DNA of 64,000 nt from contig JADANN010000006.1 in NCBI GenBank assembly GCA_018806985.1, forward strand, positions 1 to 64,000, given 5' to 3'. Both the position numbers and the translations under genes were made by a program. Under the pieces are notes generated by a model that was not told the origin of the DNA, ran no database searches, and worked only from the letters and a program-made list of their open reading frames with translations. The DNA comes from Angiostrongylus vasorum. Its lineage: Eukaryota; Nematoda; Chromadorea; Rhabditida; Metastrongylidae. Shown in pieces: positions 40,151 to 64,000 of the stretch (the first letter of the stretch is position 1; each line of letters begins with the position of its first letter).

Positions 40151-40239
40151 TTAAAAACCGATTTTTTATAACCCTCGACATAAATAGCTGATATTTTTTT
40201 TCGTGTGATCTTATAAACTAACCTGGTTGAGGTGATGCG

Positions 40240-41877: not shown

Positions 41878-44730
41878 TCAAGTAATTCTTCGTATTCTTG
41901 TTGAGCAAACACGAGGTGTTATTTTTATTCTTTAATCACGAACAAGCTGACGTTTCGGCGGATTTCGCCTTCCTCAGAGCCTGGAAAGGTCAAGTTGACA
42001 GCAATCTATTCGGCCAAACACCTCCATAACCAAACAGAGAAAACGCTGAACCAAGATTTCAATCACATTGAACACAGCTCTGCACACTCACCGCTTTCTA
42101 TGAGGCTTCTACTGAGTATGTCGCGTGAAGACCAACCGCACAGAGTTCGCATGGAAGCGTAATATGCCCCTCCCATCAAAATAACAGCCTTATATACTGC
42201 CCAATATCACGCGTGATAATGAGGCATTCTTCCAGGCGGTTCATTTTCGGATTTCTGGAATTAATCCAGAACGCCTCGAGAGTTTTGCGCGCTTGTGTTC
42301 TCGATTCCTGCGCGAGGATCGTGACACGTACTTTCCTCCCCGCTATGTCTCTGGGTCCTATGCGTGCCTAGTGGGGTATTTGGTTTACGTTTGCCGACTA
42401 GGTGTTCTTTTATGCGGACACAGAGGGGTCTGCCCGTTTCGCCAATGTATTCGTCTCCGCACGTCTTACAGGAGATCAGATAAACTGTACCCGAGCTCAT
42501 GCAATCATCGTCTCTACCATTAGGGCAAACTATGCAATTTTGCGTTGCACATAGACGGTCATATAGGCGGTTACGAACTAGTTGGCGCCTAAGATTACTC
42601 GGTGGCATTTCAACTACGTTTACCGAATTCTCTAGACCCGCCCTTCTTAAGCAGCGTTTTATAGCTGCACTTACATCATTTGAGATGAAGGGTAGGATAA
42701 ACGGGACCATTTTATCGCTAGAGTTGTCGTTTGGAGGCCTAGGATTTCCTCTACACCTGTCCCGAGCTACAGTTTCGTAGCCATTAGAAATGGCTATTTT
42801 CCGCGCCAAGTTCCGGGACTCCTCCCTCTGCTCTCTTCCCGTGCACACGTTGGTTGCTGTTCGAAACATGTTTCTTACCAGCGCCCTTTTCGTGTGAGAG
42901 GGGTTAGAGGAGAGGTAATGAACCAAGATGTTTTTATTACTTGGCTTTCGGTACCACTTCGTAATGTAGCCATTTTCTGACAGGCTAATTTGGACGTTCA
43001 GGAACGGAAGCCAGTTTTCTTTCGGTTTCTCTCGGGTGAACTTGATATACTCTGACTGTTCATTCAACAACTCGAAACATTTGTCCATTTCCTCCTGTGT
43101 TGAGCAAAGGACAAAACAGTCATCTATATATCTACAGTAGAGTAGCGGCCCGAGATCGATCACCGGTGCTTCCATCTTAGACATAAACGCAATGGCCAGG
43201 CTTGGTGCCAGTCGTTGTCCCATTGCCAACCCTCTTATTTGAGCGTAGTACTTTCCGGGCCATCTGAAGATTGAGCAGCTCAAGCATTCTTTTAAGAGTG
43301 CCATCAACTTTCGTGTCGCATCAGGAGTTCGAATATGGCTTGCATTGCGGAGTCATTCGACACGTTTGTATAGAGGGCGGTAACGTCGAACGACTCCATC
43401 ACGTACGCGCTGCTGGGCTGCGCAGTACGTAGACGATCCAGAAACATCTGGGTATTCGTAAGATGGGCTGGAATGTGTTTCAACAACTGGTTAAATAATA
43501 GGGTTAAAGACCATGTTATCCTATCCGTTGGCCCGTCTACACAGCTAATGATTGGTCTAACCTTAAACAATGATGGATCGGTAGACGCAATATCATCGCT
43601 GGATACTAGCTTATGAGTTTTTTATAAGCATGTACAAGACGGGACATGTTGGTAACTCAACTTTTAGTTGAGAGATAACTGATGGTTTTAAACCAGCAGC
43701 CCTTGCCATTTTGGCCCATTCGTGGTTCAATTTTTTGGTATTTACTTTTAAACTCCTTCTCAGATGATGGACGATAAAGCGAAGCATCTTCAAGATGCTT
43801 TTTCGTTATTTCAACATCTAACTGATGGGGAATTACGACAAACTCTCCACCCTTATCACTAACGGATAGTCTTCGGTTTTTTAACCTTATCAGCTCTCGT
43901 ACCTCTCGCATACCACGTTTTTGCACTGCAGTGAGGTTTGAGCTGTGTCTTTTCGCGCGATAGTGATTAAGGACTTTGAAAGTTTCACTCGTAAACATCC
44001 GAAATTTAACATCAACTTCATTATTGGGCTCTTGTTGTCTAAAGAACGGCTGAGGAAATGGTGCTATTGGTAAGGCCCTCACTTTTTGTTCGCGCCCATT
44101 TTGCGCTTCATCTCTAGCTTTTTTGCGGAGTCTATCTTGAAGTTCACGTAAATTGCGTGCGACCCTACGCAAGGTTATCTTAGAAATGGGTCCAGATGGT
44201 GAGAAACTCGGTACCAATTCTAATAACGAGCGCGCACCGTCAGGGAGAGTCATGCCTCCTAACACGGTTAGCCTTGGATTTTCTTGCACATTATTTTTTC
44301 CTACTGTGGCCTGTTTGATGTTCGTTAGCGGTATTTCTGTGCGCTCTTGAGGCCGTGTTATGCGATTTACTCAAAAGTCTTTGAATTTTCTCCGCACCTT
44401 AGCATTAGACGTAATAGAGTTGCAAACAACTCTGACCCACCCACTATTCTCCTCCTGAAGCGGTCCTCAATATGCTGAGCACAATACTTTTCCTTCGTCT
44501 CGCACTTCTTCCACTTGGCGAACATCTCGTTTTGTCGGCTTCGTAGACAGGTGCGTAGTATTCGCAATTCGATGTCCAGTACTTGGTGACGTCCTCTGGT
44601 AGTCCGCATACATCGTGTAGTCGCCTTCGTTTGATGAAGTTCGGGACGACTCGGTGTTTTAGACAGCCGCGGAGAAAGTGTGTTCACTGTCGAGCTAAGA
44701 CGATTTTTTTGTCTTAGTGACAGCACCTCT
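41878..44730 (-). pseudogene. near-full-length Penelope-like element (PLE), best copy in the window
   Basis: Minus strand, about 2.85 kb. Coding blocks run in order. N-terminal extension 44,726-44,367. N-terminal region 44,289-43,657, with PFPQPFFRQQEP, VDVKFRMFTSE and VSDKGGEFVVIPHQLDVE. Reverse transcriptase start 43,793-43,304, with RPIISCVDGPTDRITW and motif A SFDVTALYTNV. RT core, linker and GIY-YIG 43,307-42,261. Within that last 348-codon frame, GLAMGQRLAPSLA is at residues 27-39, the catalytic YIDD at 60-63, a Cys-rich linker at 253-269 (CATQNCIVCPNGRDDDC), and the GIY-YIG core at about 275-302 (VYLISCKTCGDEYIGETG ... RIKEH). Frameshifts near 44,360, 43,700, 43,620, 43,305 and 42,330 make it inactive. 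Known PLEs retrotranspose with a TERT-like RT and GIY-YIG endonuclease; this architecture fits the endonuclease-containing PLEs. A 3' UTR with a hammerhead-like motif follows. Confidence 0.9.
41943..41983 (-). ncRNA. hammerhead-ribozyme-like motif of the PLE 3' region, core intact
   Basis: Minus strand reads CAGGCT-CTGAGGA-A-GGCG-AAATC-CGCC-GAAA-C-GTC-AGCTTG. Stem I is 6 bp (CAGGCT with AGCTTG, one G-U pair). The invariant CTGANGA and GAAA are present. Stem II is 4 bp (GGCG/CGCC) with loop AAATC and one bulged A. Cleavage would be expected after GTC. The near-absent stem III matches the minimal type I hammerheads described from Penelope-like elements. The short stem III suggests weak activity as a monomer. 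Confidence 0.6.
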
Positions 44731-44734
44731 TTTG

Positions 44735-45060
44735 CAAGTCGGAAGTATCGTCCTGGTACGCTTCGTAATAAAGCCGTTCCGATTAGTTATCGACTAAAGA
44801 GATAGCAGGTGAAACAGTAGTAAGATGTGCAAGCTTACCACACTTGCAATGATCTCAATGAATTTAATGAGTTTAACAAAACTGAAGGAAGAAAATTGAA
44901 CGATTCTTTGTTGAGCAATAGATAGTTTGTCCAACATGAATATAAGTCATGAACATCGAGCAAAACAAGTTTCTGTCGGGAAGACACTTATCATAGCGAT
45001 CATTGCTGAATTCAAAGTTATTTGTTGCATGCAAAGCTCGTTCAATTGGATGTTGCGAGA
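44735..45060. other. gene-free stretch upstream of the PLE
   Basis: AT-rich, no supported feature. Confidence 0.35.
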
Positions 45061-45067
45061 AAAACAG

Positions 45068-45200
45068 TCACAGTTGAATTGAAAATTGTAAAAACAAAAC
45101 GAAATAAAACGAAAAATACGTGGCTAAATTAGTCGTTTCGAGATGATTCGGCCCTCATAGTATCCTCAAACACATCTCGTAATTCAATTCAATTTCAACG
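45068..45200 (+). repeat. short dispersed repeat also present once in each inverted-repeat arm
   Basis: CACAGTTGAATTGAAAATTG, AAAAATACGTGGCTAAA and CACATCTCGTAATTCAAT match 63,467-63,590 (+) and, in reverse complement, 46,083-46,210. In the arms this repeat directly abuts the 3' end of the A-type PLE, so it is a separate repeat into or beside which the PLE inserted. Confidence 0.6.
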
Positions 45201-45202
45201 AA

Positions 45203-45395
45203 GCTGAGATATTTGCAAAACTCCAGACCGCAAGTGTCTGAGATGGGAAAAGAACGCGCTATTGTCCTTTCCGGGGAGTAACGCGTTCACCACCACACCA
45301 TGCGGGTCCTTCGTTTCTCCTGTCTCTCAGCTAGTTCCATCGATCTTTTTGCCATCAGCAATCACCCGTCAACGGGATTGATCTGGGGAGCCCAC
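45203..45395 (-). repeat. R1 repeat copy
   Basis: Plus-strand reading: GAAGCTGAGATATTTGCAAAAC, CGCGCTATTGTCCTTTCCGG, CACCACACCATGCGG, then the upstream flank GCCATCAGCAATCACCCGTCAACGGG and CTGGGGAGCCCACG. Reverse complement of the 37.1 and 41.2 kb copies. Confidence 0.6.
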
Positions 45396-45866
45396 GTTTT
45401 CATACAGCTTGCACTTCTTATAAACAATATCCACCTTTCGTGCCCACTGCCGAAACATTGTAAGCAGAAGCGCCTCCCACCTCGGTGGCATTTAGTGCAA
45501 ATTTGTAAAAAACGTTTTATAGCAGAACAGTAGTAGTAGTGATTTACTAAGCTTTTGTAGAAGAACACAACGTCTTCATTCCATTGGCACTCGACCGGAT
45601 CTGTTCTAAGAAATGACGATTCCATGGCAAAAAAAACACAGTCAACATAACAAACATATGAGTATTTTAAATCAATTTATCATATAGTAGGTCTCAAGAC
45701 CGAATTCCTGTTATTTTCGGCATTGAATGAATCAGAAATGTCCACGGGCCAACGTGCATATACTTATACATATGTTGGAGTTCATGGTCAAGCCCGTTTG
45801 GGATACGAAGCAGTCGAAGTGGGCAATGGCCAGGGATCACGTTTATGCGTGTGTTGAGGGATAGCG

Positions 45867-46229
45867 GTGTACGCTAGCTCACCACACCTGGCCATAGCGT
45901 ACCATGTCATTGTCTACATCTCAACGGAATTGGGCCGTTACCTGGGGAAACGCGAGAGCGGTCCCCAGCGGCCAACCATCGGTGGGCTTTTGGCCATGAC
46001 CAACGAAAAGGAGTTGGTCGGCAAGAAGGTCGGTCCAGGAAGAGGACCATGCGCTATACGTAGTAAGAATATGAAACTTTCAGCCTGCATTGAATTACAA
46101 GATGTATTTGAAGATACCAGGAAGGCCGCAGTATCTCTATACGACTGGTTTAGCCACGTTTTTTCGTTTTTTTTTCTTTTTTGTTTTTACAATTTTCAAT
46201 TCAACTGTGACTCTCGATATTCTGGTTGA
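45867..46229 (+). other. 120-codon open frame in the left arm, unassigned
   Basis: Starts ATG with MYASSPHLAIAYHVIVYI and runs to 46,229. It overlaps the short dispersed repeat at its end. The equivalent right-arm sequence (63,807-63,445, -) differs by single-base homopolymer indels and is split into two frames. The sequence around ACCATCGGTGGGC ... GGAGTTGGTCGGCAAGAAGG is GC-richer than its surroundings and may be part of another element or an old coding sequence. I do not recognise it. Coding status is doubtful because one arm breaks the frame. Confidence 0.25.
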
Positions 46230-47890
46230 GCAAACACGAGGTGTTTACTTGTCGCAACCACATGATCAACAGCTTCTCGAAAAAAACCTACCGTTTATTA
46301 CGTGCCTTCCACTGAGGAAGAACTGCTGATCAGAGTCGCATATGGTTGATAAATGCACCACCCCATATCAAAAAGTCGATGCGAAGGTACGGGGCCAGAT
46401 CACGTGTGATCTCCAGGCATTCCTCCCTGCTGTTCATTCTAGGCTTCCTGGTATTTATACAAAATGCCTCTAGAAGTTTCCGCGTTGGTGTTTTGGCATC
46501 CTGTGCGAGGATATTGACTTTAATATCAAAATCGTCTCCGCTATGTCTTTGTATCCTGTGCGTGCCTAGTGGCGTGCCTTGTTTTGATTTTCGTATGCCA
46601 TCTAATGTTCTTTTTATGCGGATACTTAAAGCTCTTCCCGTTTCGCCAATATATTCCTCTCCGCAAGTACTACAAGAGATCAGGTATATCGTACCTGAAC
46701 TCATGCAGTCACCGTCCTTGCCATAAGGGCAAATTACGTAGCCTTGTGTTTCGCATAGACGGTCATATAGTCGGTCACGAACTAATTGACGACGAAGGGA
46801 ATCGGGTGGTATTTCAACTATCGCTAGCGATTCCTCTAGAGCTGTCCTTCTTAAGCATCGTTTTATAGCTACCACTTACTTCATCACTGTTGAGGGGCAA
46901 TATAAACGAGGTTTTGTCTTGGCCACGTTTTTTCCTTTCGGGGCATCGCTGCCATTCCTCTTTTAGTTCCCTCTTCGTGCACACAGAGGTGACTGTTCGA
47001 GACATGTTTCCTACAAGCGCCCTCCTTGTGTGTGAAGGGTGGGAGGAGAGGAAATGAACGATGATGTTCTTGTTACTTGGATTTCGGTACCATTTTGTCA
47101 TGTAACCGTTATCCGATAAGTTGATCTGAACGTTAAGAAATGGAAGCCAGTATTCTTTTGGTTTTTCACGGTTAATGTTGATGTACTCAGACTACCCATT
47201 CAACAATTCAAAGCATTTGTCCACTTCGTCCTGAGTAGAGAAGATGACAAAACAGTCATCTATACATCTACAGTAGAGTGCCGGCCAGAGATCAATAACT
47301 GGGGGCTTCTATTTTAGACATAAATGCATTGGCAAGACTTGGCGCCAGTCGCTGTCCCATTGCCAGCCCTCTAATTTGTGCGTAATAATTCCCAGACCAT
47401 CTGATAATCCAGCAGTTTAGGCACTCTTTTAAGAGAGCCATAAGCTGCTGAATAGGCATACACGTGTATTCCTCCTTCATGTTCAACAAGAAGTTAGCGG
47501 GTGGCTTGCATTGCGGAGTCATTCGAAACGTTGGTGTACAAGGCGGAAATGTTAAAGGACTTCATCACGTATGCGTTATTAGGAGACGCGCTACGTAGGC
47601 GTTCTAGGAATATCTGGGTGTTCGTAAGGTGAGCCGGAATATGTTTAAGCAACTGCGAAAGTATTAGGCTTAAAAACCAGGTTATTCTATCCGTTGGCCC
47701 ATCTAAACAACTGATGATGGATCTAACCTTGAAGGGTGTTCGGTTGGTCGACGCAAGACCATCAGCTGATACCAACTTATGTGTTTTAATAAGTAGGTAT
47801 AAGACGGGACATGTTGGTCTATTTCTATAAAGTTGATTTTAAAGTGCGAAATAATCGATGGTTTCTATGCCTTCGACGCTTGCCTCATGG
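46215..47890 (-). pseudogene. A-type PLE copy, left arm, 5'-truncated and broken
   Basis: Minus strand. RT fragments: 47,775-47,494 (VRSIISCLDGPTDRITW, SFNISALYTNV) and 47,522-47,292 (IRGLAMGQRLAPSLANAF). The catalytic segment lies near 47,285-47,230, then linker 47,101-46,814. GIY-YIG 46,875-46,330: DRLCETQGYVICPYGKDGDC, YLISCSTCGEEYIGETGRAL. Frame breaks include a TAG inside the segment equivalent to NGQSEY (near 47,193) and several 1-nt shifts. It starts at about 47,890, inside the reverse transcriptase, so the N-terminal region is lost. The 3' end is GTTTGCTCAACCAGAATATCGAG near 46,215-46,240. No hammerhead core is evident at this 3' end, unlike the B type. Confidence 0.9.
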
Positions 47891-48054
47891 ATATAGGTGC
47901 ACATTTTTTTCACTTTAGTTGTTTAATGGACTCATCACACTCTTTATTTTCCACTTCATCTACCGTCCCCCCGCATCCTCGCCGCGCGACCTAGGTGGTG
48001 CACCGCCCTGTCTGACCCATATATATTACCTGCCATTTCCGAAAAACCAACGAG

Positions 48055-48249
48055 ATGGCGCTAGTGCGATGGCCGGGCTGTTATGCAACGTATATTTGCG
48101 CGGGATTGCTTCCCAACTGTTGCTTCGCTATATTATTCAGTAGGTCCGCAAATGCACGCATCAATCAAAAACTGCCGCGTGGGATCGGCCGGCTCTTCAG
48201 TACCCTGCCGTATTGGCTTATCCGACTTGAAACGCGCAGATTTTGTTGA
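48055..48249 (+). other. small open frame, left-arm version, frameshifted relative to right arm
   Basis: ATG at 48,055 gives MALVRWPGCYATYICAGLLP and ends at 48,249 after 64 codons. The right-arm counterpart (61,620-61,390, -) is 76 codons, because left CAGTACCCTGCC has one C more than right CAGTACCTGCC. I do not recognise the product. A TATA-like ATATATATT lies about 30 bp upstream of the ATG. Probably not a gene, but it is the only non-retroelement frame shared by both arms. Confidence 0.2.
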
Positions 48250-48974
48250 ATATTTGAAGGGAGAATTTACTAATAATACGCATTAATTGATATTTTTGCG
48301 ATAGATTTAGGTTTCCACGCTTATTGAACGGCATCTCCACCATTGCGCTATGCGTGCTCTTTTCAGCATGTTAATATAGTAAATTTTTCCGAGTCGTGAA
48401 AAACGAAGTTTTTGAACACTAACGAACACTAGCGTTAGAAATCTTTTAAACTATTTGAAAACAAACGAAGTTTTCGACAGTGTCAAGAAGATGGAGAAAT
48501 ACTATTGAGCAAGCCTTTCTAACTGAAAACGACTCGACGAAAGAACTGTTTTGTTATTGTGTTCTCAAAAGGAAATTAGTGCAACAACAACCGTCAGTTA
48601 GTGTTCGTAGGTATGACGACTCTACTCTTTGGTGAACGAATACAGATAGGATGTCTTTTGTTTAAACGCTTTTCAACGTCTTTTCCTATTCGATAGAAGT
48701 TAGGACGAAATGCACATGTCAGTGATACTCCGCTGTAGGTTTCTTTCCTTTTCGTTCATTTCCATGACTCGACTTCATAAATTGTGTTGATCTCGATGCT
48801 CCGATTGCCTCACCTTAAAAGTGCGTTTTTTTAACTTGTATAGTGCTCATGTACAACACGACTACAACATAACGATAATTGGCCAGTATTGGACGATGAT
48901 ATCACCTTGAGAGCCGAAACAACCCCTTCTTGTTTAATCAATACCACAAGAATTGTCTGTTTTAGCAGAGGTCC

Positions 48975-49065
48975 CAGCGTCAGAGGTTTGCAAATACCTC
49001 AGCGTACAGGTTATATTTTGCAACATACCCTGCCATTAAAAAAGAATAGGCAGTAAATAAAAAGG
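48975..49065 (+). repeat. R1 repeat, 3' end only (left arm)
   Basis: GCAAATACCTCAGCGTACAGG, CATACCCTGCCATTAAAAAAG and AATAGGCAGTAAATAAAAAGG. The CTGCC/GGCAG tail stem is intact. The right-arm copy is at 60,610-60,703. Confidence 0.7.
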
Positions 49066-49374
49066 TTACGATTGTGCTGTTCTTCCCAAATAGATATTTT
49101 GGACGAGATAATGAAGATTTTTGTGTAATATTTTGTGGATATACGGAATAATAGGAGAATAGAAGAACGAAAAATAGGTGATAACGGTCCTGAAAAACTG
49201 CCGCTCCACAGAAATCGATGCTGTAGAAGAAATCACCTGTTTATATTAACCGTGATGAAATAGGCACACTTGAAATGCTGAGTTTAAAGATTTGTTTGAT
49301 TACTGTGCACTTTGTGGAATTGATCTGACTTTTGAGCTTGATATGACAACCGCTTACTTGGTTCACGTTTTTTT

Positions 49375-51552
49375 AGACAGCAGTACCCTAACGATGGAGT
49401 TGACATAAAATTCCGCATGTTTTCGGACGGCGTTCTCAAGACCCTTAATCATTACCGCGATAGAAAGTTTATCTCTAACCTTACAGCCGCACAAAAAATG
49501 TGGCATGCGAGAAATTAGAGAATTAATAAACTCAAAAAACAATAAGATTTGAAAAGGTGGAGAGTTCGTAGTTATTTCTCGCCAGCTGGATGTTGAGATA
49601 ACAGAGGAACATCTTAGTGATGCTACCCTCTATCGCCCATCCTCTGAAAAACGAATACAAAAGTCAATACCGAAAGCTAAACAATCAATAGGTCAGTGTG
49701 GCAAGGGCTGCAGGCATAAAACCATTGGTTATTTCGCACTTTAAAATCAATAGACCAACATGTTCCGTCTTATACCTACTTATTAAAACATATAAGTTGG
49801 TATCAGCTGATGATCTTGCGTCAACCAACCGAACACCCTTCAAGGTTAGATCCATCGTCATTTGTGTAGATGGGCCAACGGATAGAATAACCTGGTTTTT
49901 AAGCCTAATACTTTACCAGCTGCTCAAACATATTCCAGCTCACCTTACGAACACCCAGATATTCCTAGAACATCTACGTAACGCGTCTCCTAGTAACGCA
50001 TACGTGATGAAGTCCTTTGACATTTCCGCCTTGTACACCAACGTTTCGAATGACTCCGCAATGCAAGCCACCCGCTAACTTCTTGTTGAACATGAAGGAG
50101 GAATACACGTGTATGCCTATTCAGCAGCTTATGGCTCTCTTAAAAGAGTGCCTAAACTGCTCGATTTTCAGATGGTCTGGGAATTATTACGCACAAATTA
50201 GAGGGCTGGCAATGGGACAGCGACTGGCGCCAAGTCTTGCCAATGCATTTATGTCTAAAATAGAAGCCCCAGTTATTGATCTCTGGCCGGCACTCTACTG
50301 TAGATGTATAGATGACTGTTTTGTCATCTTCTCTACTCAGGACGAAGTGGACAAATGCTTTGAATTGTTGAATGGGCAGTCTGAGTACATCAACATTAAC
50401 CGTGAAAAACCAAAAGAATACTGGCTTCCATTTCTTAACGTTCAGATCAACTTATCGGATAACGGTTACATGACAAAATGGTACCGAAAGCCAAGTAATA
50501 AAAACATCTTGGTTCATTACCTCTCCTCTCACCCCTCTCACACGAAAAGAGCGCTGGTAAGAAACATGTTTCGAACAGCAACCAACGTGTGCACGGGAAG
50601 ATAGCAGAGGGGAGGAGACCCGGAACTTGGCGTGGAAAATAGCCATTTCTAATGGCTACGAAACTGTAGCTCGGGACAGGTGTAGAGGAAATCCTGGGCC
50701 TCCAAACGACAACTCTAGCGATAAAATGGTCCCTGTTTATCCTACCCATCATCTCAAATGATGTAAGTGCAGCTATTAAACGCTGCTTAAGAAGGGCGGG
50801 TCTAGAGAATTCGGTAAATGTAGTTGAAATGCCGCCGAGTATTCTTAGGCGCCAGCTAGTTCGTAAACCGCCTAAATGACCGTCTATGTGCAACGCAAAA
50901 ATTGCATAGTTTGCCCTAATGGTAGAGACGGTGATTGCATGAGCTCGGGTACAGTTTATCTGATCTCCTGTAAGACGTGCGGAGACGAATACATTGGCGA
51001 AACGGGCAGACCCCTCTGCGTCCGCATAAAAGAACACCTAGTCGGCAAACGTAAACCAAATACCCCACTAGGCACGCATAGGACCCAGAGACATAGCGGG
51101 GAGGACTTTGAAGTACGTGTCACGATCCTCGCGCAGGAATCGAGAACACAAGCGCGCAAAACTCTCGAGGCGTTCTGGATTAATTCCAGAAATCCGAAAA
51201 TGAACCGCACGGAAGAATGCCTCATTATCACGCGTGATATTGGGCAGTATATAAGGCTGTTATTTTGATGGGAGGGGCATATTACGCTTCCATGCGAACT
51301 CTGTGCGGTTGGTCTTCACGCGACATACTCAGTAGAAGCCTCATAGAAAGCGGTGAGTGTGCAGAGCTGTGTTCAATGTGATTGAAATCTTGGTTCAGCG
51401 TTTTCTCTGTTTGGTTATGGAGGTGTTTGGCCGAATAGATTGCTGTCAACTTGACCTTCCAGGCTCTGAGAAAGGCGAAATCCGCCGAAACCTTATCTTG
51501 TTCGTGTTTAAAGAATAAAAATAACACCTCGTGTTTGCTCAACAAGAATACG
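49375..51552 (+). pseudogene. chimeric PLE copy spanning the inner edge of the left arm
   Basis: Plus strand. 49,382-49,690: N-terminal region, frameshifted (FFRQQYPNDGVDIKFRMF). 49,698-50,078: RT entry and motif A (SFDISALYTNV). 50,017-50,604: RT core with GLAMGQRLAPSLANAFMS and CIDDCF; the YxDD motif reads CIDD here. 50,876-51,268: linker and GIY-YIG (YLISCKTCGDEYIGETG) to a natural C-terminus ending GQYIRLLF. Up to about 50,480 the sequence follows the A type, and beyond the TGGTACCGAA at 50,479-50,488 it follows the type of the 41.9-44.7 kb copy. The hammerhead block at 51,459-51,500 is broken: CTGAGAA for CTGAGGA, and GAAACCTTATC for GAAACGTCAGC. The 3' end CTCAACAAGAATACGAAG is near 51,537-51,554. 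Confidence 0.9.
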
Positions 51553-51559
51553 AAGAAAA

Positions 51560-52880
51560 AATGTGTCATGCATTCTGTTGTTCGTGAAGAATAACGTGAA
51601 ATGACGCCGCTCTGCTTCGACGTTTCACTAAGAGCCGAAGGTGGGGTTTTTTGGAAACAGAAATTACAAACAGAGTGATTACTTTGCATTCAGTTTCCAT
51701 TTGATTAATTGCAACCGCACTATTTATGAGAACTTCAGTCCTTTTCGAGCCAATATTGATGCAATTAAATAACTAAAGTCTTCTGGATTTGCAGCACAAA
51801 TCAGTGTGACATGTTTTGTAGAGTGTCTGTAGCAGTGATATTTGATGGAATTCCTGGTGACCCGCCAATGCAGTATGTCCATTTGGTGAGGCTAGACCAC
51901 CCTCTTCCAGTACATGGGTACTTGACGACGTAGACTACGAATAATTCGGGGTTCATTCAAACGAACTTGAATGCTTTTTTCCATTTGCTGCTACATATTA
52001 TGCGCATATATACGTCTATATATATGTATGTGTATCTATATATAAAGGTTCATAGGAAAACGCTGGAAAGAAAATAGAAGATTGCTCCAATTAGTCGACC
52101 GACCAATCGAGAACAATGCAATAAGCAGAATAGCCGATAACGAGAGTCCCGGAGTGTGAACTCGAGAGCTTATAAGAGCGATTTTCAGTAGCAATGGTTA
52201 ATTATTCCCTCGTTGTTTTTTCGGAATGGTTAGCCCCAGTGGACATCGAGGAGGAACTCACAGAAACGGAGGTGGACGTTCCTATGTACTCGTGCGACAC
52301 AGAGATATCATGCCCTCGGGAAAGGCCTGGGCACTCCACTTATTCACAACGACATAGTTTCCAAGCAGAAGAGATGCGTAACATCTCATCAAATTTTCGG
52401 GTTTCCTGCTATCCGTGGAACCTTGTTTGCGGTATTCGTGGCACCGAGTCGCGTCTGATGAAGCGGAACATCGTAAAAATAAAGCGCCCTCACCGATTAT
52501 GTCCTTTTATAAAGGACAGTTCTTTGCTTATAAGCCCTCAGTTGTCATCCGTTTCTGTGAAAACAACCCATCATGCAGCGTTCGCAGTCACAGTATTTTT
52601 TAAAAAATTCCATATCTGGTATGCATTGCATACTTAAATAATTGTTCAGATTACGTTCACGAGACTTCATCATACTTTACATTTGTAAAGTTCTATAACA
52701 ACCGCAGTATATAGCGATTGCTCGTTTACCACACGAGAGGTTACATGAGAGCTCTAGTCGAGCCGACATACATGGACACCCACACTGATTGGGCCTTTGG
52801 CTGGCGCTGGTTGTTGTCGAGGATCAAGTAGACTTTGCATTCCATTTTTTATATGTGATTCTTCTGAAAATTGCCATATA
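51560..52880. other. gene-free stretch in the inverted-repeat spacer
   Basis: A 147-codon frame (52,194-52,637, +; ATG start) lies here with no recognisable domain, splice site or poly(A) signal. A short TA/TATG-rich patch is at 52,005-52,050. Otherwise unremarkable. Confidence 0.35.
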
Positions 52881-52889
52881 CTATCATAG

Positions 52890-53745
52890 AAGAACGTAAA
52901 AGCGTTTTCGTCAGCACGAGTTTGGCCATGAACATCGATTCATTCTGAACAACTAACAGCACGAATCGGACATTTACCGTTGAAGCGATGAGGATCAATA
53001 CTGGCTTTGACAATCTTCGTTGTCTGTGCATCGACATCTCGCTATGACGAAGAAGAAGTCGATGCGTTCTATATGGGTTGTAGAAGTTTTACAGTGAAGA
53101 TCATACATTCCTTAATGTTATCTTTGGAGATTTTAAGGCGAAGACTGGAGCCGGAAGAACGGTTGAAGAACGTCACATTGGGACTCATAGATTAGAATGG
53201 AACGAACAGAGTCAGCGGTTATCTGAGTTTATCATGGCCACCAAAACCATCCATGGTGACTCGTAATTCTAGAGGCCCCACCCTCATCACTGGACGTGGG
53301 AGTCGCCCAAAGGAGAGTACCATAACAAAATATACCACATCATAGTAAATAAAAGCTTTTGCTCACCGATGTCGCTGTTGTCCCAAAATTCTACACAGGA
53401 TCCGACCATCGCCTCCTTCGTGCGAGATTCCATTTCTCGCACAAAGGAGAAAAAGCTACTAAATTCAAAAAACGAAGTCCCAAAACCACCATAAACGGGA
53501 CTTATTCAATTCATTAGTCGGCTGTTGGGGAAGATACCGTTGTCGACAACATCGAGCAGGAATACGATCGGCTCATACAACATCTTCACGTTAGCACTGT
53601 GTTAGCCCAGTGTTCGAAAGTCACCAAGAGACGTCTGTCTCCTGGAACACACGAACTGATACGCCAGCGTGGAATCGCACGAGCTGCAGGCAGTCGCGGA
53701 CTAACATCCGAGCTTGCAAAACAGTACAAAAATCCATATTCCCCT
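52890..53745 (+). pseudogene. RTE-clade LINE fragment, endonuclease part, inverted relative to its neighbour
   Basis: The plus strand gives VFVSTSLAMNIDSF (52,897-52,940), EQLTARIGHLPLKR, ALTIFVVCASTSRYDEEEVD (52,998-53,060), then frameshifted pieces: GTHRLEW-like, TGSDHRLLRARFHFS (53,400-53,445), KSPKTTINGTYS (53,475-53,505), QEYDRLIQHLH (53,558-53,590) and RRLSPGTHELIRQRGIARAA (53,632-53,690). It ends SELAKQYKNPYSP near 53,745. This is the endonuclease plus the start of the RT-linker, 5'- and 3'-truncated, and full of frameshifts. It ends within 10 bp of the 3' end of the opposite-strand RTE. Confidence 0.85.
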
Positions 53746-53754
53746 TAAACGTCG

Positions 53755-56700
53755 AGTGACTCGAGGCGCCAGTAAATATTCCATTTTTCCTCGTCGAGTT
53801 AAAGGGTAGCCTAGTGGGTTCTGTTCGCTCTAGGAACACGTCCGACATCATATCTTTCTTCTAGGCTTTTCGTAAAGGACTCTCGCTATCGGGTCGGTGG
53901 TCTTCCTGCAGTGCGTGCTTCGACATCCCGAGGAATCCATTCACTAACGGCCGTTGTCCATCGGTTGTCAATCATAAGCATTACGTGTTCGGCCCATCTT
54001 ATCTTTGACTGTTTGGCGTACAGAACGACATCTTTGATTTTTGATCGATGACGCAGGTTAGAGCTTCGGATCCCTTCCCTAATATGTGAAACAGGATACT
54101 TCTAGCATCGTCCTTTCGACTGCGCGTTCGATAACGCTGAGTGATCCTTCATCCTGCTTATGCAGCGACCAGGTTTCGCACCCATACGTTAGGGCAGGAA
54201 GTACCCCTCAGTCGAATAGGTGGGCACGGAGTCGGGTGTTCTTAGTTCTCTTCACTACATCCTCCATGCTCTCGAAAGCTCCCCCAAGCCGCTCGTTTCC
54301 TTCTGCTCAGCTGTGGAGCTAAGTCGTTCATCATGTTTATTTCCCGACCTAGATAGACATAACTGGAGCATTCCGAGATATTCATTCCGTTGAGCATGAG
54401 TGGGGGCATGCGAAACCAATCCGTTCCTCATGAACATCGTATTCATGGGATTTAGTCGAAGACCAATCTTTCCACAGGCTCTATCAAAGCTGGCATGCAT
54501 ACGTTCCACTTGGCTAATGTTTGATGCTATAAGGACGATGTCATCGGCAAAGCCAAGATGGTATAACTGCCGACCATCGATTTTCACAACCGTATTACCC
54601 CATTCCAATGCTCGCATGATGTTCTGGAGAGTGGCCGTAAACAATTTTGGCAAGATGGTGTCGCCTTGCCTAACTCCTCTTTTGACATCGATGTTAATAT
54701 CGTTGTAGAATGGTTGTATCTTGGTTGGAAAAATTTTTGTAAGGCTCACGAAGAAACACCATGTACTGAGTAGCGGCTCCTTGATTATCAAGGGTTTCCA
54801 TGACTGCTTCTATCTGAATTGAGTCAAAGGCCTTCTTTAAATCCATAGAAGTGAGACAGAGCGGTTTTTTGTGCTCTCGCGATACTTCAATGAATCTCGT
54901 TATCGTGTAAATGTGGTCCATCTTACTAAATCCTTTTCGAAACCCTGCTCGCACACATGGCTGTCCTTCCTCCAGTGTTCTGTCAGTCCTGTTTAGGACG
55001 ACTCGAGTGAAAAGTTTGTAGACGACAGACAGCAAACACATTGGACGATAGTTGCCGATATCGGGTAGGTCACCCTTCTTGCACCATAACACGGTCTTAC
55101 TGGTCTTCCACTTCCACCTTGTAAAGAGCCGAGCCAGTGTGTCTACCTAGACTGTTTGAAGGTTTTTCAGGTGTTCTGATCTTCTCCTGTCCGCACCTGG
55201 TGCTGTTCGGTTTTTCACCGACGAAATGGCATAAAGGATTTTAGAAGGGAAAACCGGTGGTACAACATACCTATCCTCCTTTATTTCATAGGTCGGAAGG
55301 TGGACGTGGTTATTGAAGAGATCTGAGCAGTATTTATAAACGATTTTCTTCATTGCCTTTCTGAACACTGTAACTATTCCGTCTGGGCGTTGGAGTGCAA
55401 TCATGTTGTTCTTGCAAGTGGCGAAGCTTAGGTGGACTTTGCGAATGCTTTTCCTAGCCTCTGCAGCTTCGACCATTACTGCTGCTCTACTCTCTTTAAG
55501 ATCTTCTTTTATCGTCTCTCCGTATTGTTTTGCAAGTTCGGACGATAGTTCGCGGTTGCCTGCAGCTCGTGCGATTCCACGCTGGGGGTGTCAGTTCGTG
55601 TGTTTCTGATATCTCTTGGTGACTTTCGAACTCTGGGTTTACATAGTGCTAACGTGAAGGTGCTGTATGAAGCGATCGTATTTCTCGTCCATGTTATCGA
55701 CAACGAGCATCTTCCCAAAAGCCGACTAATGGATTCAATAAGACCCAGTTTATGGTGGTTCTGGGAACTCGGTTTTTGAATTTAGCGGCTTGTTCTCCTT
55801 TCCGAGAGAAATGGAATTTTGCGCGAAGGAGGCTATGGTCGGATCCCCCTGTTGAATTTTGGGACAACAGCGACATCGGTTAGGAAAACCTTCTATTTAC
55901 TATGATGTGGTCTATTTCTGTTATGGTACTCTCCACTGGGAGACTCCAACGTCGTGCGTTGAGGGCGGAGCTTTTGGAATTGTGAGTTACCACGGGACTT
56001 GTCTTGGTCGCCATGATAAACTCAGACAGCCGCTCACCCTGTTCGTTGCATTCTAATCCGTGGGTCCCTAATGTGACGTTCGTCAGCCGTTCTTCTTGGT
56101 CCAATCTTAACGTTGAAATCTCCAATGATGACCTTGAAGAATGTGTGGTCTTCTCTGTAGAACTTCTCCAAGTTCATATAGAATGCTTCAACTTCTTCTT
56201 CGTCATAGTTTGATGTTGGCGCGTAAACGACGAAGGTTGTCAAAGCTGGTATTGGTCCACATCTTTTTAATCGTAAACGTCACATTCGGGCTGTTAGTTG
56301 TTCGAATGGATCAATGTTCGTGGACAAACTCGTGTTGACGAAACGCCGACGCCGCCGACTCCTCTGTTGTCCCATGTTCCGAAGAATAGTTCTTCTCCGG
56401 TGTCATAGACATTGTTGAAAGGTCTCGTCTCGGCCAGGCCGATGACGTTATACCTTGTCCTTCTTGCTTGCATGAGTAAGTCTTCTATTGATTACTCGGA
56501 TACTAGTGTACGTGCATTGTAGGTACAGATCGCCACCTTAGTTCTTCGTGATCCAGGCAGCTTCCATTGGCCCTGAGATTTTAGCAGCCTCTCCTTACTC
56601 ACCCCTAGCCAACGCTGCTGTATTGGGAGCTCTTTGCGGTTCAAGGGAATGAGGCCCGTTTCTTTTACTCTTTTTAGCTTTTTGATACCCACGTATAGCT

Positions 56701-57110
56701 TGCTGGGCTCTGAACGTGGGGGCTGCGTATACTGACGGGTAGCTTGCCAGGCTCTCCCAGAGTGGACACGGAGCTTATTTGTTGGAGGCGACTCCCAACC
56801 GCCTCCCCATATACTCCCCGGCACTTGATTGCAGGCATTTGGCCGAATTGACTCGTAGAATACAATCCGCATAAACTAGGAACGCATCCACACACATACA
56901 TACAGACACATGAATACGCCTCGCAGATACAGAAAGTATGTGCCAAATCGGCGCAGCAGAAACAGCGAGTCCATCCCTTGATCCACCTGCTTCTCAGGGA
57001 AGCAAAGGTCGCTTTTCGTCCGCGGTTAACCCCCCTATCCGCCACCTGGGACGCGCCAAGTAGCCTCACGACTAGCTGCTCGAGATCCCTCATATGAGGG
57101 AGATCCGTGG
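53755..57110 (-). pseudogene. nearly full-length RTE-clade LINE, inactivated
   Basis: Minus strand, about 3.3 kb, the usual RTE length. 5' region 57,093-56,500. Endonuclease start KLPGSRRTKVAICTYNARTL (56,565-56,506), interrupted by a TAA at 56,492. FVVYAPTSNYDEEEVEAFY and the catalytic-region VIIGDFNVKIG (56,231-56,100). EIDHIIVN then a frameshift near 55,840. VKNRTAPGADRRRSEHLKNL (55,215-55,160). A short internal deletion at 55,147-55,110 has lost about ten codons. GNYRPMCLLSVVYKLFTRVV (55,065-55,005). KAFDS motif A. KRGVRQGDTILPKLFTATLQ. Catalytic FADD at 54,551-54,540. C-terminal block RPPTR ... EEKWNIYWRLESLDV to 53,755. Several stops and frameshifts. RTE elements mobilise by target-primed reverse transcription with these two domains; this copy cannot do so. 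Confidence 0.92.
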
Positions 57111-57119
57111 ATACAGATA

Positions 57120-57940
57120 CCCATAAATATGTATATATTAATTACAAATAATTTGGCATCGATGGGTATTTATATGGACAATATCAAAATAACGATATTT
57201 TTGTAGTAATGTTGAATTTAAAACAGAAAAGTTCTGCCCTGACCTCTTCCGTTCCGCAGTCCTCTTCTCGGACACTAAAATCCCCCGCTTTAAAAACACC
57301 ACCTGGAATTCTTTCCTCTGGGGTTCGATTTGCAATAGGAAATATGAAGAAAGGCACGCCAATAGATCCCATAAAAATCACCGTCAGCATTCTTTGAGCT
57401 GGAGGCCCCAATCTACATGTACTTATTGCAACCCACATTAAACCTTCGTTAAAAAAGGCAAAAATCCCAGAATAGTGGATGACAGCGCGCCCTCTCATCC
57501 TGCTTGAAAAATGTGGCCGAAGGAGTCTTTCGCAAGTATCGTTCGATATGCTTGTTTATTGCAATTTATAAGCTCAGGACGTAGATTATTGTGTCGCGTA
57601 TATCAAGGACACTGGATGAGGCATAACCACATGGGCAAGCAAGAATTCGGCAAGGATTTTGCTGCACAAACCACCTCCATACCGTGCCTAGGGTAGGAGA
57701 AGTTTGTCAGGAATGTCATTTGCTCCGAATCCTGATTTTTTTTTGAGCATGAAAGGGCATTCGGCAGAATCGAAACGGGAAGCAATCTTGTGAGAGCTCG
57801 CTAACAAAAAGACAGAAAACCTCCTGCACAAGAACTCTCTCCGACTGTTATCAGGACTCCACTACTAAAATAGAGTTTGTCCAATCAGTTAGAAATCGTC
57901 GTTCATTTTACTCGCAACTGATGCTGCTATATATCGTGGG
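57120..57940. other. gene-free stretch in the spacer
   Basis: Open frames of 60-105 codons on both strands overlap each other and lack splice or domain support. AT-rich. Confidence 0.35.
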
Positions 57941-58033
57941 ATACTCAGTCCATTCACCATTCAAGCGGTGCTGCACTCAAGAAGACTCGACTCTGTACGA
58001 CTACAAAGACCAACAACACGAATACGCAAATCA

Positions 58034-58116
58034 TCGGCTCTAAAAAAGACGATTATATCGAAACATTAGGCTAATAAGGGTTATATAACAATCTCGTGTA
58101 AGTTTGACAATCTGAA
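58034..58116 (+). mobile_element. PLE 3'-end relic with decayed hammerhead-like block
   Basis: CGGCTCTAAAAAAGACG, ATATCGAAACATTAGGCT, then ATAACAATCTCGTGTAAGTTTGACAATC match in order the PLE 3' end (GGCTCTGAGGAAGGCG, CCGAAACGTCAGCTTG, ATAACACCTCGTGTTTGCTCAACAAG). The core bases are lost (CTAAAAA). Confidence 0.45.
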
Positions 58117-58139
58117 CTAATGCAAATTTAAGTCGGAGT

Positions 58140-58870
58140 TAAGTGAAAGTCGGTTTAGTGAAGCTTCAGAAGACATTTTGCGGTTTGGTCGATGTCTCGG
58201 TATAGCACTAAGAAGCTGGGATAGCATGATATCTATGATCTATAAGACCTTACGCGTTTACGCTTTTGTGCTGGTAATGGTGTTCAACAACCGATAATGG
58301 ATCGGTATAGGCAAAACCTGCAGCTGCAGATTCTTATGTGTCTCAATAAGCAAGTGTAGAACGATACATGCCAAAAAGTTATCTCAAGACGGAAAACATT
58401 TGTTGGTTTTAAACGTGTTGTGGTTGTCACTATGTGCTTAATGCTTGATATTGATTATTTTTACATCTTTCAAGATGCACGTTCTAAGAAGCTATTCTAA
58501 AGACGTCTCTCCGTTATTGTGACATCCAATCGAATAGGAATTCGCAAATTTTGCTGCTAGTTGCTGTATTCGCACTATATTGCTTAAGAGCTTATGAACG
58601 TACGTACCTTTCTTGAACAACAATATAGTTTCTGTCTAAGATTCTTGTTGAAGATAATATGGCGATATCTAGTATTTATCATTGAGAACTTCGCGTTTTG
58701 AGTTGAGAATTAAGAACAGATGGAAGCTTACGTCAATAGCGTCGTTTGTTACCCTTTTTCTAAATAACTTTTTTGGAAAAATGTTAATTGTCCAAAGGGT
58801 CTGAAATTTGTTAGCTACTTTAGTACAGCAGCCCATTGTTGTATTCACTGGACCCGTAGACCCGTACACT
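58140..58870 (-). pseudogene. old PLE copy, N-terminal region to RT entry
   Basis: Minus strand. INIFPKKLFRKRVTNDAIDV then SFHLF (58,790-58,720) matches PFPQPFFRQQEPNNEVDVKFRMF of the best copy. After frameshifts, RIPIRLDVTITERRL (58,545-58,500) matches VVIPHQLDVEITKKHL. CIVLHLLIETHK (58,362-58,327) matches CPVLYMLIKTHK, and TRKVL.IIDIMLSQLLSAIP (about 58,240-58,180) matches the DRITW..LLF.QLLKHIPAH block. It is clearly homologous but older than the other copies. Confidence 0.65.
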
Positions 58871-58984
58871 AACAGTGTGAGCTCTCACCAAGCAAGCAAA
58901 AACTTCTGTCGAAAATCGCTCAGAGAGCGCCCCTTTATCCTGGAGAGCTCTTGGGTGAATAGGGTACTAATAAAAGGCCCGCCC

Positions 58985-59072
58985 ATAGGAGCTGCCTAAG
59001 AAAAGGTGGTCTTGAAAATTATATAACGATTGTTGACCTCCAGCCCAACACCATTCGCCGTCAACTTTTAGT
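58985..59072 (+). pseudogene. PLE linker fragment at the edge of the right arm
   Basis: The plus strand reads LRKGGLENYITIVDLQ and NTIRRQLL, matching LRRAGLENSVNVVEMPPSNL and RRQLVR of other copies. It stops at the AACTTTTAG near 59,063-59,071, where an oppositely oriented PLE begins. Confidence 0.65.
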
Positions 59073-60305
59073 TCCCTCTTCGTGCACACGTTGGTTGCTG
59101 TTCGAAACATGTTTCTTACCAGCGCTCTTTTCGTGTGAGAGGGGTGAGAGGAGAGGTAATGAACCAAGATGTTTTTATTACTTGGCTTTCGGTACCATTT
59201 TGTCATGTAACCGTTATCCGATAAGTTGATCTGAACGTTAAGAAATGGAAGCCAGTATTCTTTTGGTTTTTCACGGTTAATGTTGATGTACTCAGACTGC
59301 CCATTCAACAATTCAAAGCATTTGTCCACTTCGTCCTGAGTAGAGAAGATGACAAAACAGTCATCTATACATCTACAGTAGAGTGCCGGCCAGAGATCAA
59401 TAACTGGGGCTTCTATTTTAGACATAAATGCATTGGCAAGACTTGGCGCCAGTCGCTGTCCCATTGCCAGCCCCTCTAATTTGTGCGTAATAATTCCCAG
59501 ACCATCTGAAAATCGAGCAGTTTAGGCACTCTTTTTAAGAGAGCCATAAGCTGCTGAATAGGCATACACGTGTATTCCTCCTTCATGTTCAACAAGAAGT
59601 TAGCGGGTGGCTTGCATTGCGGAGTCATTCGAAACGTTGGTGTACAAGGCGGAAATGTCAAAGGACTTCATCACGTATGCGTTACTAGGAGACGCGTTAC
59701 GTAGATGTTCTAGGAATATCTGGGTGTTCGTAAGGTGAGCTGGAATATGTTTGAGCAGCTGGTAAAGTATTAGGCTTAAAAACCAGGTTATTCTATCCGT
59801 TGGCCCATCTACACAAATGACGATGGATCTAACCTTGAAGGGTGTTCGGTTGGTTGACGCAAGATCATCAGCTGATACCAACTTATATGTTTTAATAAGT
59901 AGGTATAAGACGGAACATGTTGGTCTATTGATTTTAAAGTGCGAAATAACCAATGGTTTTATGCCTGCAGCCCTTGCCACACTGACCTATTGATTGTTTA
60001 GCTTTCGGTATTGACTTTTGTATTCGTTTTTCAGAGGATGGGCGATAGAGGGTAGCATCACTAAGATGTTCCTCTGTTATCTCAACATCCAGCTGGCGAG
60101 AAATAACTACGAACTCTCCACCTTTTCAAATCTTATTGTTTTTGAGTTTATTAATTCTCTAATTTCTCGCATGCCACATTTTTTGTGCGGCTGTAAGGTT
60201 AGAGATAAACTTTCTATCGCGGTAATGATTAAGGGTCTTGAGAACGCCGTCCGAAAACATGCGGAATTTTTATGTCAACTCCATCGTTAGGGTACTGCTG
60301 TCTAA
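59062..60305 (-). pseudogene. chimeric PLE copy, right arm
   Basis: Minus-strand counterpart of 49,375-50,595. 60,300-59,990: frameshifted N-terminal region. 59,980-59,600: RT entry and motif A, identical in translation to the left-arm copy. 59,661-59,476 and 59,464-59,080: RT core with GLAMGQRLAPSLANAF and CIDDCF. It follows the A type down to 59,197, the B type for about 100 bp (59,188-59,089), then A-type sequence again for about 24 bp (CTTTTAGTTCCCTCTTCG..., 59,065-59,088), and then breaks off. The linker and endonuclease are missing. Confidence 0.9.
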
Positions 60306-60609
60306 AAAAACGTGAACCAAGTAAGCGGTTGTCATATCAAGCTCAAAAGTCAGATCAATTCCACAAAGTGCACAGTAGTCAAACAAATCTTTAAACTCAG
60401 CATTTCAAGTGTGCCTATTTCATCACGGTTAATATAAACAGGTGATTTCTTCTACAGCATCGATTTCTGTGGAGCGGCAGTTTTTCAGGACCGTTATCAC
60501 CTATTTTTCGTTCTTCTATTCTCCTATTATTCCGTATATCCACAAAATATTACACAAAAATCTTCATTATCTCGTCCAAAATATCTATTTGGGAAGAACA
60601 GCACAATCG

Positions 60610-60703
60610 TAACCTTTTTATTTACTGCCTATTCTTTTTAATGGCAGGGTATGTTGCAAAAATATAACCTGTACGCTGAGGTATTTGCAAACCTCTGACG
60701 CTG
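60610..60703 (-). repeat. R1 repeat, 3' end only (right arm)
   Basis: Plus strand CCTTTTTATTTACTGCCTATTC, TTTTTAATGGCAGGGTATG. Counterpart of 48,975-49,065; one T-run differs by a base. Confidence 0.7.
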
Positions 60704-61389
60704 GGACCTCTGCTAAAACAGACAATTCTTGTGGTATTGATTAAACAAGAAGGGGTTGTTTCGGCTCTCAAGGTGATATCATCGTCCAATACTGGCCAAT
60801 TATCGTTATGTTGTAGTCGTGTTGTACATGAGCACTATACAAGTTAAAAAACGCACTTTTAAGGTGAGGCAATCGGAGCATCGAGATCAACACAATTTAT
60901 GAAGTCGAGTCATGGAAATGAACGAAAAGGAAAGAAACCTACAGCGGAGTATCACTGACATGTGCATTTCGTCCTAACTTCTATCGAATAGGAAAAGACG
61001 TTGAAAAGCGTTTAAACAAAAGACATCCTATCTCTATTCGTTCACCAAAGAGTAGAGTCGTCATACCTACGAACACTAACTGACGGTTGTTGTTGCACTA
61101 ATTTCCTTTTGAGAACACAATAACAAAACAGTTCTTTCGTCGAGTCGTTTTCAGTTAGAAAGGCTTGCTCAATAGTATTTCTCCATCTTCTTGACACTGT
61201 CGAAAACTTCGTTTGTTTTCAAATAGTTTAAAAGATTTCTAACGCTAGTGTTCGTTAGTGTTCAAAAACTTCGTTTTTCACGACTCGGAAAATTTACTAT
61301 ATTAACATGCTGAAAAGAGCACGCATGGCGCAATGGTGGAGATGCCGTTCAATAAGCGTGGAAACCTAAATCTATCGCAAAAATATCAA

Positions 61390-61620
61390 TTAATGCGTAT
61401 TATTAGTAAATTCTCCCTTCAAATATTCAACAAAATCTGCGCGTTTCAAGTCGGATAAGCCAATACGGCAGGTACTGAAGAGCCGGCCGATCCCACGCGG
61501 CAGTTTTTGATTGATGCGTGCATTTGCGGACCTACTGAATAATATAGCGAAGCAACAGTTGGGAAGCAATCCCGCGCAAATATACGTTGCATAACAGCCC
61601 GGCAATCGCACTAGCGCCAT
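61390..61620 (-). other. small open frame, right-arm version (76 codons)
   Basis: Minus strand, ATG at 61,620, MALVRLPGCYATYICAGLLP to YLKGEFTNNTH. A longer and apparently undisturbed version of the left-arm frame at 48,055. Unknown function. It may be an exon fragment or chance. Confidence 0.25.
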
Positions 61621-61789
61621 CTCGTTGGTTTTTCGGAAATGGCAGGTAATATATATGGGTCAGACAGGGCGGTGCACCACCTAGGTCGCGCGGCGAGGAT
61701 GTGGGGGGCGGTAGATGAAGTGGAAAATAAAGAGTGTGATGAGTCCATTAAACAACTAAAGTGAAAAAAAATGTGCACCTATATCCATG

Positions 61790-63450
61790 AGGCAAGCGTC
61801 GAAGGCATAGAACCATCGATTATTTCGCACTTTAAAATCAACTTTATAGAAATAGACCAACATGTCCCGTCTTATACCTACTTATTAAAACACATAAGTT
61901 GGTATCAGCTGATGGTCTTGCGTCGACCAACCGAACACCCTTCAAGGTTAGATCCATCATCAGTTGTTTAGATGGGCCAACGGATAGAATAACCTGGTTT
62001 TTAAGCCTAATACTTTCGCAGTTGCTTAAACATATTCCGGCTCACCTTACGAACACCCAGATATTCCTAGAACGCCTACGTAGCGCGTCTCCTAATAACG
62101 CATACGTGATGAAGTCCTTTAACATTTCCGCCTTGTACACCAACGTTTCGAATGACTCCGCAATGCAAGCCACCCGCTAACTTCTTGTTGAACATGAAGG
62201 AGGAATACACGTGTGATGCCTATTCAGCAGCTTATGGCTCTCTTAAAAGAGTGCCTAAACTGCTGGATTATCAGATGGTCTGGGAATTATTACGCACAAA
62301 TTAGAGGGCTGGCAATGGGACAGCGACTGGCGCCAAGTCTTGCCAATGCATTTATGTCTAAAATAGAAGCCCCCAGTTATTGATCTCTGGCCGGCACTCT
62401 ACTGTAGATGTATAGATGACTGTTTTGTCATCTTCTCTACTCAGGACGAAGTGGACAAATGCTTTGAATTGTTGAATGGGTAGTCTGAGTACATCAACAT
62501 TAACCGTGAAAAACCAAAAGAATACTGGCTTCCATTTCTTAACGTTCAGATCAACTTATCGGATAACGGTTACATGACAAAATGGTACCGAAATCCAAGT
62601 AACAAGAACATCATCGTTCATTTCCCTCTCCTCCCACCCTTCACACACAAGGAGGGCGCTTGTAGGAAACATGTCTCGAACAGTCACCTCTGTGTGCACG
62701 AAGAGGGAACTAAAAGAGGAATGGCAGCGATGCCCCGAAAGGAAAAACGTGGCCAAGACAAAACCTCGTTTATATTGCCCCTCAACAGTGATGAAGTAAG
62801 TGGTAGCTATAAAACGATGCTTAAGAAGGACAGCTCTAGAGGAATCGCTAGCGATAGTTGAAATACCACCCGATTCCCTTCGTCGTCAATTAGTTCGTGA
62901 CCGACTATATGACCGTCTATGCGAAACACAAGGCTACGTAATTTGCCCTTATGGCAAGGACGGTGACTGCATGAGTTCAGGTACGATATACCTGATCTCT
63001 TGTAGTACTTGCGGAGAGGAATATATTGGCGAAACGGGAAGAGCTTTAAGTATCCGCATAAAAAGAACATTAGATGGCATACGAAAATCAAAACAAGGCA
63101 CGCCACTAGGCACGCACAGGATACAAAGACATAGCGGAGACGATTTTGATATTAAAGTCAATATCCTCGCACAGGATGCCAAAACACCAACGCGGAAACT
63201 TCTAGAGGCATTTTGTATAAATACCAGGAAGCCTAGAATGAACAGCAGGGAGGAATGCCTGGAGATCACACGTGATCTGGCCCCGTACCTTCGCATCGAC
63301 TTTTTGATATGGGGTGGTGCATTTATCAACCATATGCGACTCTGATCAGCAGTTCTTCCTCAGTGGAAGGCACGTAATAAACGGTAGGTTTTTTTCGAGA
63401 AGCTGTTGATCATGTGGTTGCGACAAGTAAACACCTCGTGTTTGCTCAAC
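61790..63450 (+). pseudogene. A-type PLE copy, right arm, 5'-truncated and broken
   Basis: Plus-strand counterpart of 46,215-47,890. RT entry at 61,899-62,180 (VRSIISCLDGPTDRITW, SFNISALYTNV). RT core 62,170-62,560, with frame breaks including the TAG near 62,480 that the left arm shares. Linker 62,574-62,861. GIY-YIG 62,800-63,345, with 181 codons identical in translation to the left arm. Relative to the left arm it has extra 1-nt changes near 62,214 (GTGTGATG for GTGTATG) and 62,625 (CATTTCCC for CATTTCC). The shared disabling stop shows the copy was already dead when the arm was duplicated. Confidence 0.9.
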
Positions 63451-64000
63451 CAGAATATCGAGAGTCACAGTTGAATTGAAAATTGTAAAAACAAAAAAAG
63501 AAAAAAAAACGAAAAAACGTGGCTAAACCAGTCGTATAGAGATACTGCGGCCTTCCTGGTATCTTCAAATACATCTTGTAATTCAATGCAGGCTGAAAGT
63601 TTCATATTCTTACTACGTATAGCGCATGGTCCTCTTCCTGGACCGACCTTCTTGCCGACCAACTCCTTTTCGTTGGTCATGGCCAAAGCCCACCGATGGT
63701 TGGCCGCTGGGGACCGCTCTCGCGTTTCCCCAGGTAACGCCCAATTCCGTTGAGATGTAGACAATGACATGGTACGCTATGGCCAGGTGTGGTGAGCTAG
63801 CGTACACCGCTATCCCTCAACACACGCATAAACGTGATCCCTGGCCATTGCCCACTTCGACTGCTTCGTATCCCAAACGGGCTTGACCATGAACTCCAAC
63901 ATATGTATAAGTATATGCACGTTGGCCCGTGGACATTTCTGATTCATTCAATGCCGAAAATAACAGGAATTCGGTCTTGAGACCTACTATATGATAAATT

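Follow-up and report, generated by a model that had tools for sequence, protein, structure and literature searches.

The large inverted repeat on contig JADANN010000006.1 (hereafter C6) of the Angiostrongylus vasorum assembly is, with a probability of roughly 0.87, an artefact of long-read assembly, and probably not a biological structure. This judgement draws on sequence comparisons within C6 and with other contigs. The outer arms of the repeat most likely represent a single uncorrected read that was placed twice, once in each direction, and its inner edges, which fall in copies of Penelope-like elements (PLEs), are the likely site of a false joint. C6 comprises 109,731 bases in an assembly of 279.9 Mb and 468 contigs; the window analysed here is its first 64,000 bases (C6:1-64000).

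Extent of the mirror

When the window was compared with itself by blastn, positions 45,674-50,595 aligned with 64,000-59,081 of the minus strand over 4,930 columns at 99.53% identity (E=0), with 5 mismatches and 18 one-base gaps, many of which lie in or next to homopolymer runs; a separate repeat finder recovered the same arms (45,674-50,595 and 59,081-64,000), albeit in pieces. The arms with few differences, the coordinate sum of 109,674-109,678 and the spacer of ~8.5 kb (8,485 bases as measured) are therefore as the original prediction described them, and the right arm, which had been expected to continue past 64,000, could be followed to the last base of C6, 109,731. The predicted size of ~18.3 kb, with arms of 4.9 kb, holds as a minimum, since the apparent arm start at 45,674 is a limit imposed by the window end at 64,000, and the true arm measures 50,595 bases, from base 1 onward.

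With the rest of the contig included, the whole of C6 forms one mirror. The left arm (arm A, 1-50,595, plus strand) is mirrored, as its reverse complement, by the right or mirror arm (arm B, 109,731-59,081), of which 59,081-64,000 (minus strand) lies within the window and 64,001-109,731 outside it, and the spacer (50,596-59,080) is present once. The arms reach both contig ends, and the outermost 7,338 bases of C6 are identical to those of its reverse complement. Scans of the 64-kb window for tRNA genes and Rfam families returned nothing.

The divergence of truly duplicated DNA is led by substitutions. In the full comparison of the two arms of C6, gaps and not substitutions dominate (392 mismatches, 572 gap events), and their distribution is uneven: the first 7,334 bases hold no difference at all, clusters of differences then alternate with stretches of 4.8, 3.3 and 4.3 kb in which the arms are identical, and the accumulation is densest over 27.0-33.3 kb, with 198 mismatches and 307 gap events, after which differences become few. 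The arms thus lack the even-age, substitution-led divergence expected of a segmental inverted duplication, and haplotype divergence was likewise rejected as the main source of their differences, because these are gap-rich and mostly one-sided against contig C294.

Error-like discordances in the outer arms

The minus strand of C294 carries the locus of the outer arms in the same order, with short breaks. The two contigs were matched over C6 positions 1-2567, about 3058-5000, 16,678-18,213 and 18,496-33,263, to which the comparison is confined, and the match ends at 33,263, within a PLE copy. From this point toward the contig end, arm A becomes less and less like C294: the identity is 98-99% between 31.1 and 33.1 kb, 93-96% between 27.6 and 31.1 kb, 80-91% between 23.1 and 27.6 kb, and 67-84% farther out than 23 kb. 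Arm B is poorer than arm A over 27-33 kb (82-96%; 92-96% at 31.1-33.1 kb), and at 18.5-19.0 kb it reaches 82% against 79% for arm A. The left arm is consequently better corrected than its mirror in the transition at 27,001-33,263 (plus strand), while the outer arm proper (1-27,000, plus strand), in which the long runs of identical letters lie, appears read-like and uncorrected where it was compared.

Among the 38 windows compared with C294, 17 lie outward of 23 kb and wholly within the C294 stretch used; an eighteenth (20996-21496) overran that stretch and was excluded. In 15 of the 17 there is not a single difference between the arms, yet 2,078 columns are discordant with C294 (67-84% identity); in the other two, 48 and 37 columns differ between the arms. 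Over 23.7-32.7 kb, agreement with C294 is found in arm A alone in 714 columns, in arm B alone in 148 and in neither in 72, and both arms jointly disagree with it in a further 888, a pattern that fits the uneven correction of one starting sequence.

Which of the two contigs is damaged can be judged from a transposon at 18.5-19.45 kb, the one repeat used in this way, with five family members as reference. These agree with one another at 91-94% over long matches, and the C294 copy is 90-92% identical to all five, with 0.08-0.14 gap events per mismatch. The copy in arm A of C6, by contrast, is 69-78% identical to the family, with 0.58-0.69 gap events per mismatch, and that in arm B 69-79%, with 0.43-0.54. 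Since the C294 copy is close to the family and those of C6 are far off and dense in indels, the damage at this site sits in C6 and appears to be of the type seen when long reads are left uncorrected; for the same stretch of 18.5-19.45 kb, the family comparison argues against C294 being an old paralogue. The remaining outer parts compared display the same pattern as the transposon site and look uncorrected too.

Errors would be expected to arise independently in two copies within the genome, and equally in two passes over a single molecule. Independent copies would not share errors of the kind found in the outer arms, as judged from C294 and one transposon family, and this points to one read placed twice. 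The original prediction had taken disabling mutations shared by the PLE copies as a sign that the segment was duplicated as a block after the elements had died. This argument fails, because the outer arms share even the error-like discordances, so that sharing between the arms demonstrates a common source sequence and not an event in the genome.

The contig ends complete this picture. Read in either direction, C6 terminates at the same base, which, like the shared error-like discordances, is expected of a mirror contig made by an assembler. With its first 1,200 bases as query (C6:1-1200), matches were confined to C6 itself, twice, and C294 at 78%, and this end query found no high-identity continuation in another contig. 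Unique flanks beyond both arms, as expected of a segmental inverted duplication, are absent, the arms filling the contig to its ends.

Penelope-like elements and the inner edges

PLE copies are abundant in the genome, and both inner edges of the mirror (50,595 and 59,081) fall within such copies. Four were delimited in the window: one at 41,885-44,046 (minus strand; "42k"), with a match to RVT_1, the reverse transcriptase domain; one at 46,395-49,378 (minus strand; "46k"), 97.8% identical to C404:113376-116356, a match that begins at the start of the C404 stretch retrieved; a mosaic copy at 49,369-51,557 (plus strand), which spans the left inner edge with unbroken homology; and one at 59,065-60,309 (minus strand) at the right inner edge, which departs from the arm sequence at 59,081. 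The 42k and 50k open reading frames (ORFs) match RVT_1 with scores over the cut-off and the 59k ORF with one under it; RVT_1 was not found in the two further PLE ORFs given. As to the GIY-YIG endonuclease, the ORF at 46333-46875 had no Pfam match, and PF01541, labelled GIY-YIG in some cases, occurs in many of the listed relatives of the 42k ORF. Among the 120 of 234 relatives of the PLE protein that were listed, the highest identities in named species are those to Angiostrongylus costaricensis, which reach 90% over half of the protein, and to A. cantonensis, which reach 81%, and longer matches of 51-63% occur in Ancylostoma, Haemonchus and Necator, a pattern that by itself makes a strongylid near Angiostrongylus the likely source.

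At the left edge, 37 of the 40 scored matches to a 601-base query across 50,595 lie on other contigs, at 89-91% identity, and cover positions 1-601 of the query, or 3-601 in one case. The mosaic copy that spans this edge is 46k-like from about 49.7 kb to about 50,468 (~50.5 kb) and 42k-like beyond, in both arms, and the switch may reflect recombination of PLE subtypes in nature or may have been produced during assembly. Within 46395-51557, two PLE copies are arranged head to head and meet at about 49,370; the C404 copy that the left one resembles at 97.8% has a different other side.

At the right edge, the arm sequence yields to a stretch common to the 46k copy. With at most 2 mismatches allowed, a 25-base word taken there has 122 occurrences genome-wide, three of which are exact and lie in C6 (control: 0), and the edge is also bridged over about 60 bases by two loci, one on C99 (95%) and one on C464 (93%). 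The element itself stops near 59,065, adjoining a short repeat (58974-59063) present at many loci with 82-87% identity. Two distinct PLE copies appear to have been merged here over their common part, and we infer that the assembler, not the worm, merged them.

The mirror could then have been built as follows. At raw-read error rates, diverged PLE copies would be indistinguishable to the assembler, which may have used PLE homology to connect the spacer's right end to the left arm in reverse; alternatively, a chimeric or foldback read at that point may have seeded the false joint. Both sides would have been extended with the same terminal read until that read was exhausted, and polishing would then have corrected the inner sequence, and the outer sequence only in patches.

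Comparable difficulties have been described elsewhere. In rotifers, PLEs are reported to be arranged most commonly head to head, and long tandem or inverted structures prevented the assembly of whole Pen3 and Pen4 elements (PMC3846280). The oppositely oriented PLE copies at both inner edges of C6 resemble that account; what distinguishes C6 from it is that the whole contig is mirrored.

Alternative explanations

The artefact reading has to contend with the inner part of the mirror. The inner arm (38,963-50,595, plus strand) is corrected in both arms, which over 11.6 kb differ by 14 mismatches and 49 gap events, 47 of them single-base, and has a corrected appearance where it was compared with C404 and C20 (44.0-49.4 kb). 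An uncorrected spacer likewise found no support in the one part tested, at about 57,215-57,884, where 643-681 columns against each of seven family members contain 6-16 gap openings and 150-180 mismatches. The corrected look of both counts against an artefact, as do the only two gaps between the arms that exceed 9 bases, which are situated in opposite arms: 57 bases at 38,019 (38019-38077) are present in the left arm alone, and 51 bases at left-arm position 38,962 in the right arm alone. Neither is a simple repeat or a one-base error.

These observations favour a real inverted repeat with arms of at most ~17 kb (33.3-50.6 kb), bounded by PLEs, in which case only the outer arms would be false, both sides having been given the same outer read by the assembler. 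The divergence of C6 and C294 at 33,263, inside a PLE, and the inverted, mostly head-to-head structures reported for rotifer PLEs (PMC3846280) point the same way. We nevertheless consider this unlikely, as 40,000-47,900 (7,901 bases), where a single mismatch between the arms stands against 21 gap events, all but one of them single-base, looks like one sequence with consensus errors, and a second outer flank was not seen with queries 1-1200 and 35,900-38,000. The latter segment has full-length matches only in C6, and the same is true of the other arm and spacer parts searched, except 47,900-49,350, a multi-copy PLE segment; in the spacer, 51,560-52,900 and 57,884-58,900 have at-length matches only in C6 (in one spacer search among the best 40 of 1095 candidates), and the rest includes multi-copy repeats. 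Five mismatches between the arms cluster at 47.9-49.35 kb, a segment 96-99% similar to C20 and C404, and at position 48,643 arm A and arm B each match a different outside copy; cross-mapped correction with reads from C404 or C20 could explain this cluster as well as real divergence. It is in our estimation improbable that the core is a real, very recent inverted duplication (arms of at most 17 kb, PLE copies at the edges) that arose through a template switch from one PLE copy to another and subsequently led the assembler astray. The spacer also contains an 81% inverted repeat pair of its own (52906-53727 and 55522-56343), whose family is present in many copies genome-wide and which is nearly concentric with the large mirror (coordinate sums of 109,249 and 109,676).

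A single foldback (strand-switch) read or amplification chimera could also have produced the mirror by itself. Foldback reads are reported to make up about 0.55-0.6% of genomic ONT reads, one example having ~2 kb between its segments (PMC12870357), and artificial palindromes that arise during amplification are reported to lead to false inverted duplications in assemblies (PMC6218980). C6 resembles the artefacts described in these two papers in that a sequence is followed by its own reverse complement, sometimes around an unpaired spacer, and differs in that its outer arms share error-like discordances and its joint lies in a repeat. Two passes over opposite strands should err independently, yet the arms show no difference in the first 7,334 bases or in 15 of the 17 outer windows. 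The edge, moreover, sits where two PLE sequences share letters, for which repeat homology is the better explanation. We therefore hold such an origin to be quite improbable for the mirror as a whole, although a foldback or chimeric read could have seeded the joint; the shared discordances indicate that the copying was most likely done by the assembler.

C6 further resembles a segmental inverted duplication or palindrome in its two long, near-identical inverted arms around a spacer, and differs in its missing outer flanks, its shared error-like discordances and the gap-rich differences between its arms. Gene conversion can yield perfect runs of several kb with divergent patches between them. 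It is nonetheless scarcely credible that the entire palindrome, with its 50-kb arms, is real and homogenised in this way, C294 being an old paralogue: identical multi-kb runs interrupted by divergent patches are indeed present, but indel damage to the transposon copy in C6 far exceeds that in the C294 copy and in each of the five family members compared, the identity of arm A to C294 drops from 98-99% to less than 85% within about 10 kb, and the arms differ chiefly by gaps. Of the three readings offered originally, namely segmental duplication, substrate of an inversion polymorphism and assembly artefact, it is the last that fits the evidence.

Other contigs and implications

Mirrored ends were found in none of 20 other contigs (C1-C24 without C4, C6, C13 and C18; 400-base ends), a sample of the 467 others by a test that detects fully mirrored contigs only. 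By this test the assembly does not suffer from such mirrors in general, which counts against the artefact reading. Both ends of C14 (loci L054 and L074) share a repeat, in direct orientation only. The PLE word was also encountered in opposite orientation, ~15-17 kb apart, at C410:179028/193875 and C88:53250/70303. Within each pair the two copies carry identical mismatches, and these pairs may be further inverted PLE structures or mirrors; as centred whole-contig mirrors, C88 (139,916 bases) and C410 (244,555 bases) were rejected, since the centres of the pairs do not fit.

The assembler-made mirror that we propose for C6 bears on what can be read from such sequences. The ATAC array at 14,004-15,283 and the AAC array at 23,122-23,556 lie within 1-27,000, which appears uncorrected where it was compared, and their lengths are not to be trusted. 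As much of this region is apparently uncorrected, reading frames, indels and divergences observed there may not be those of the genome. The mirror thus warns against inferring duplication, gene conversion or the age of elements from C6, and mirrored ends in combination with shared read-like errors provide a cheap flag for contigs of this kind.
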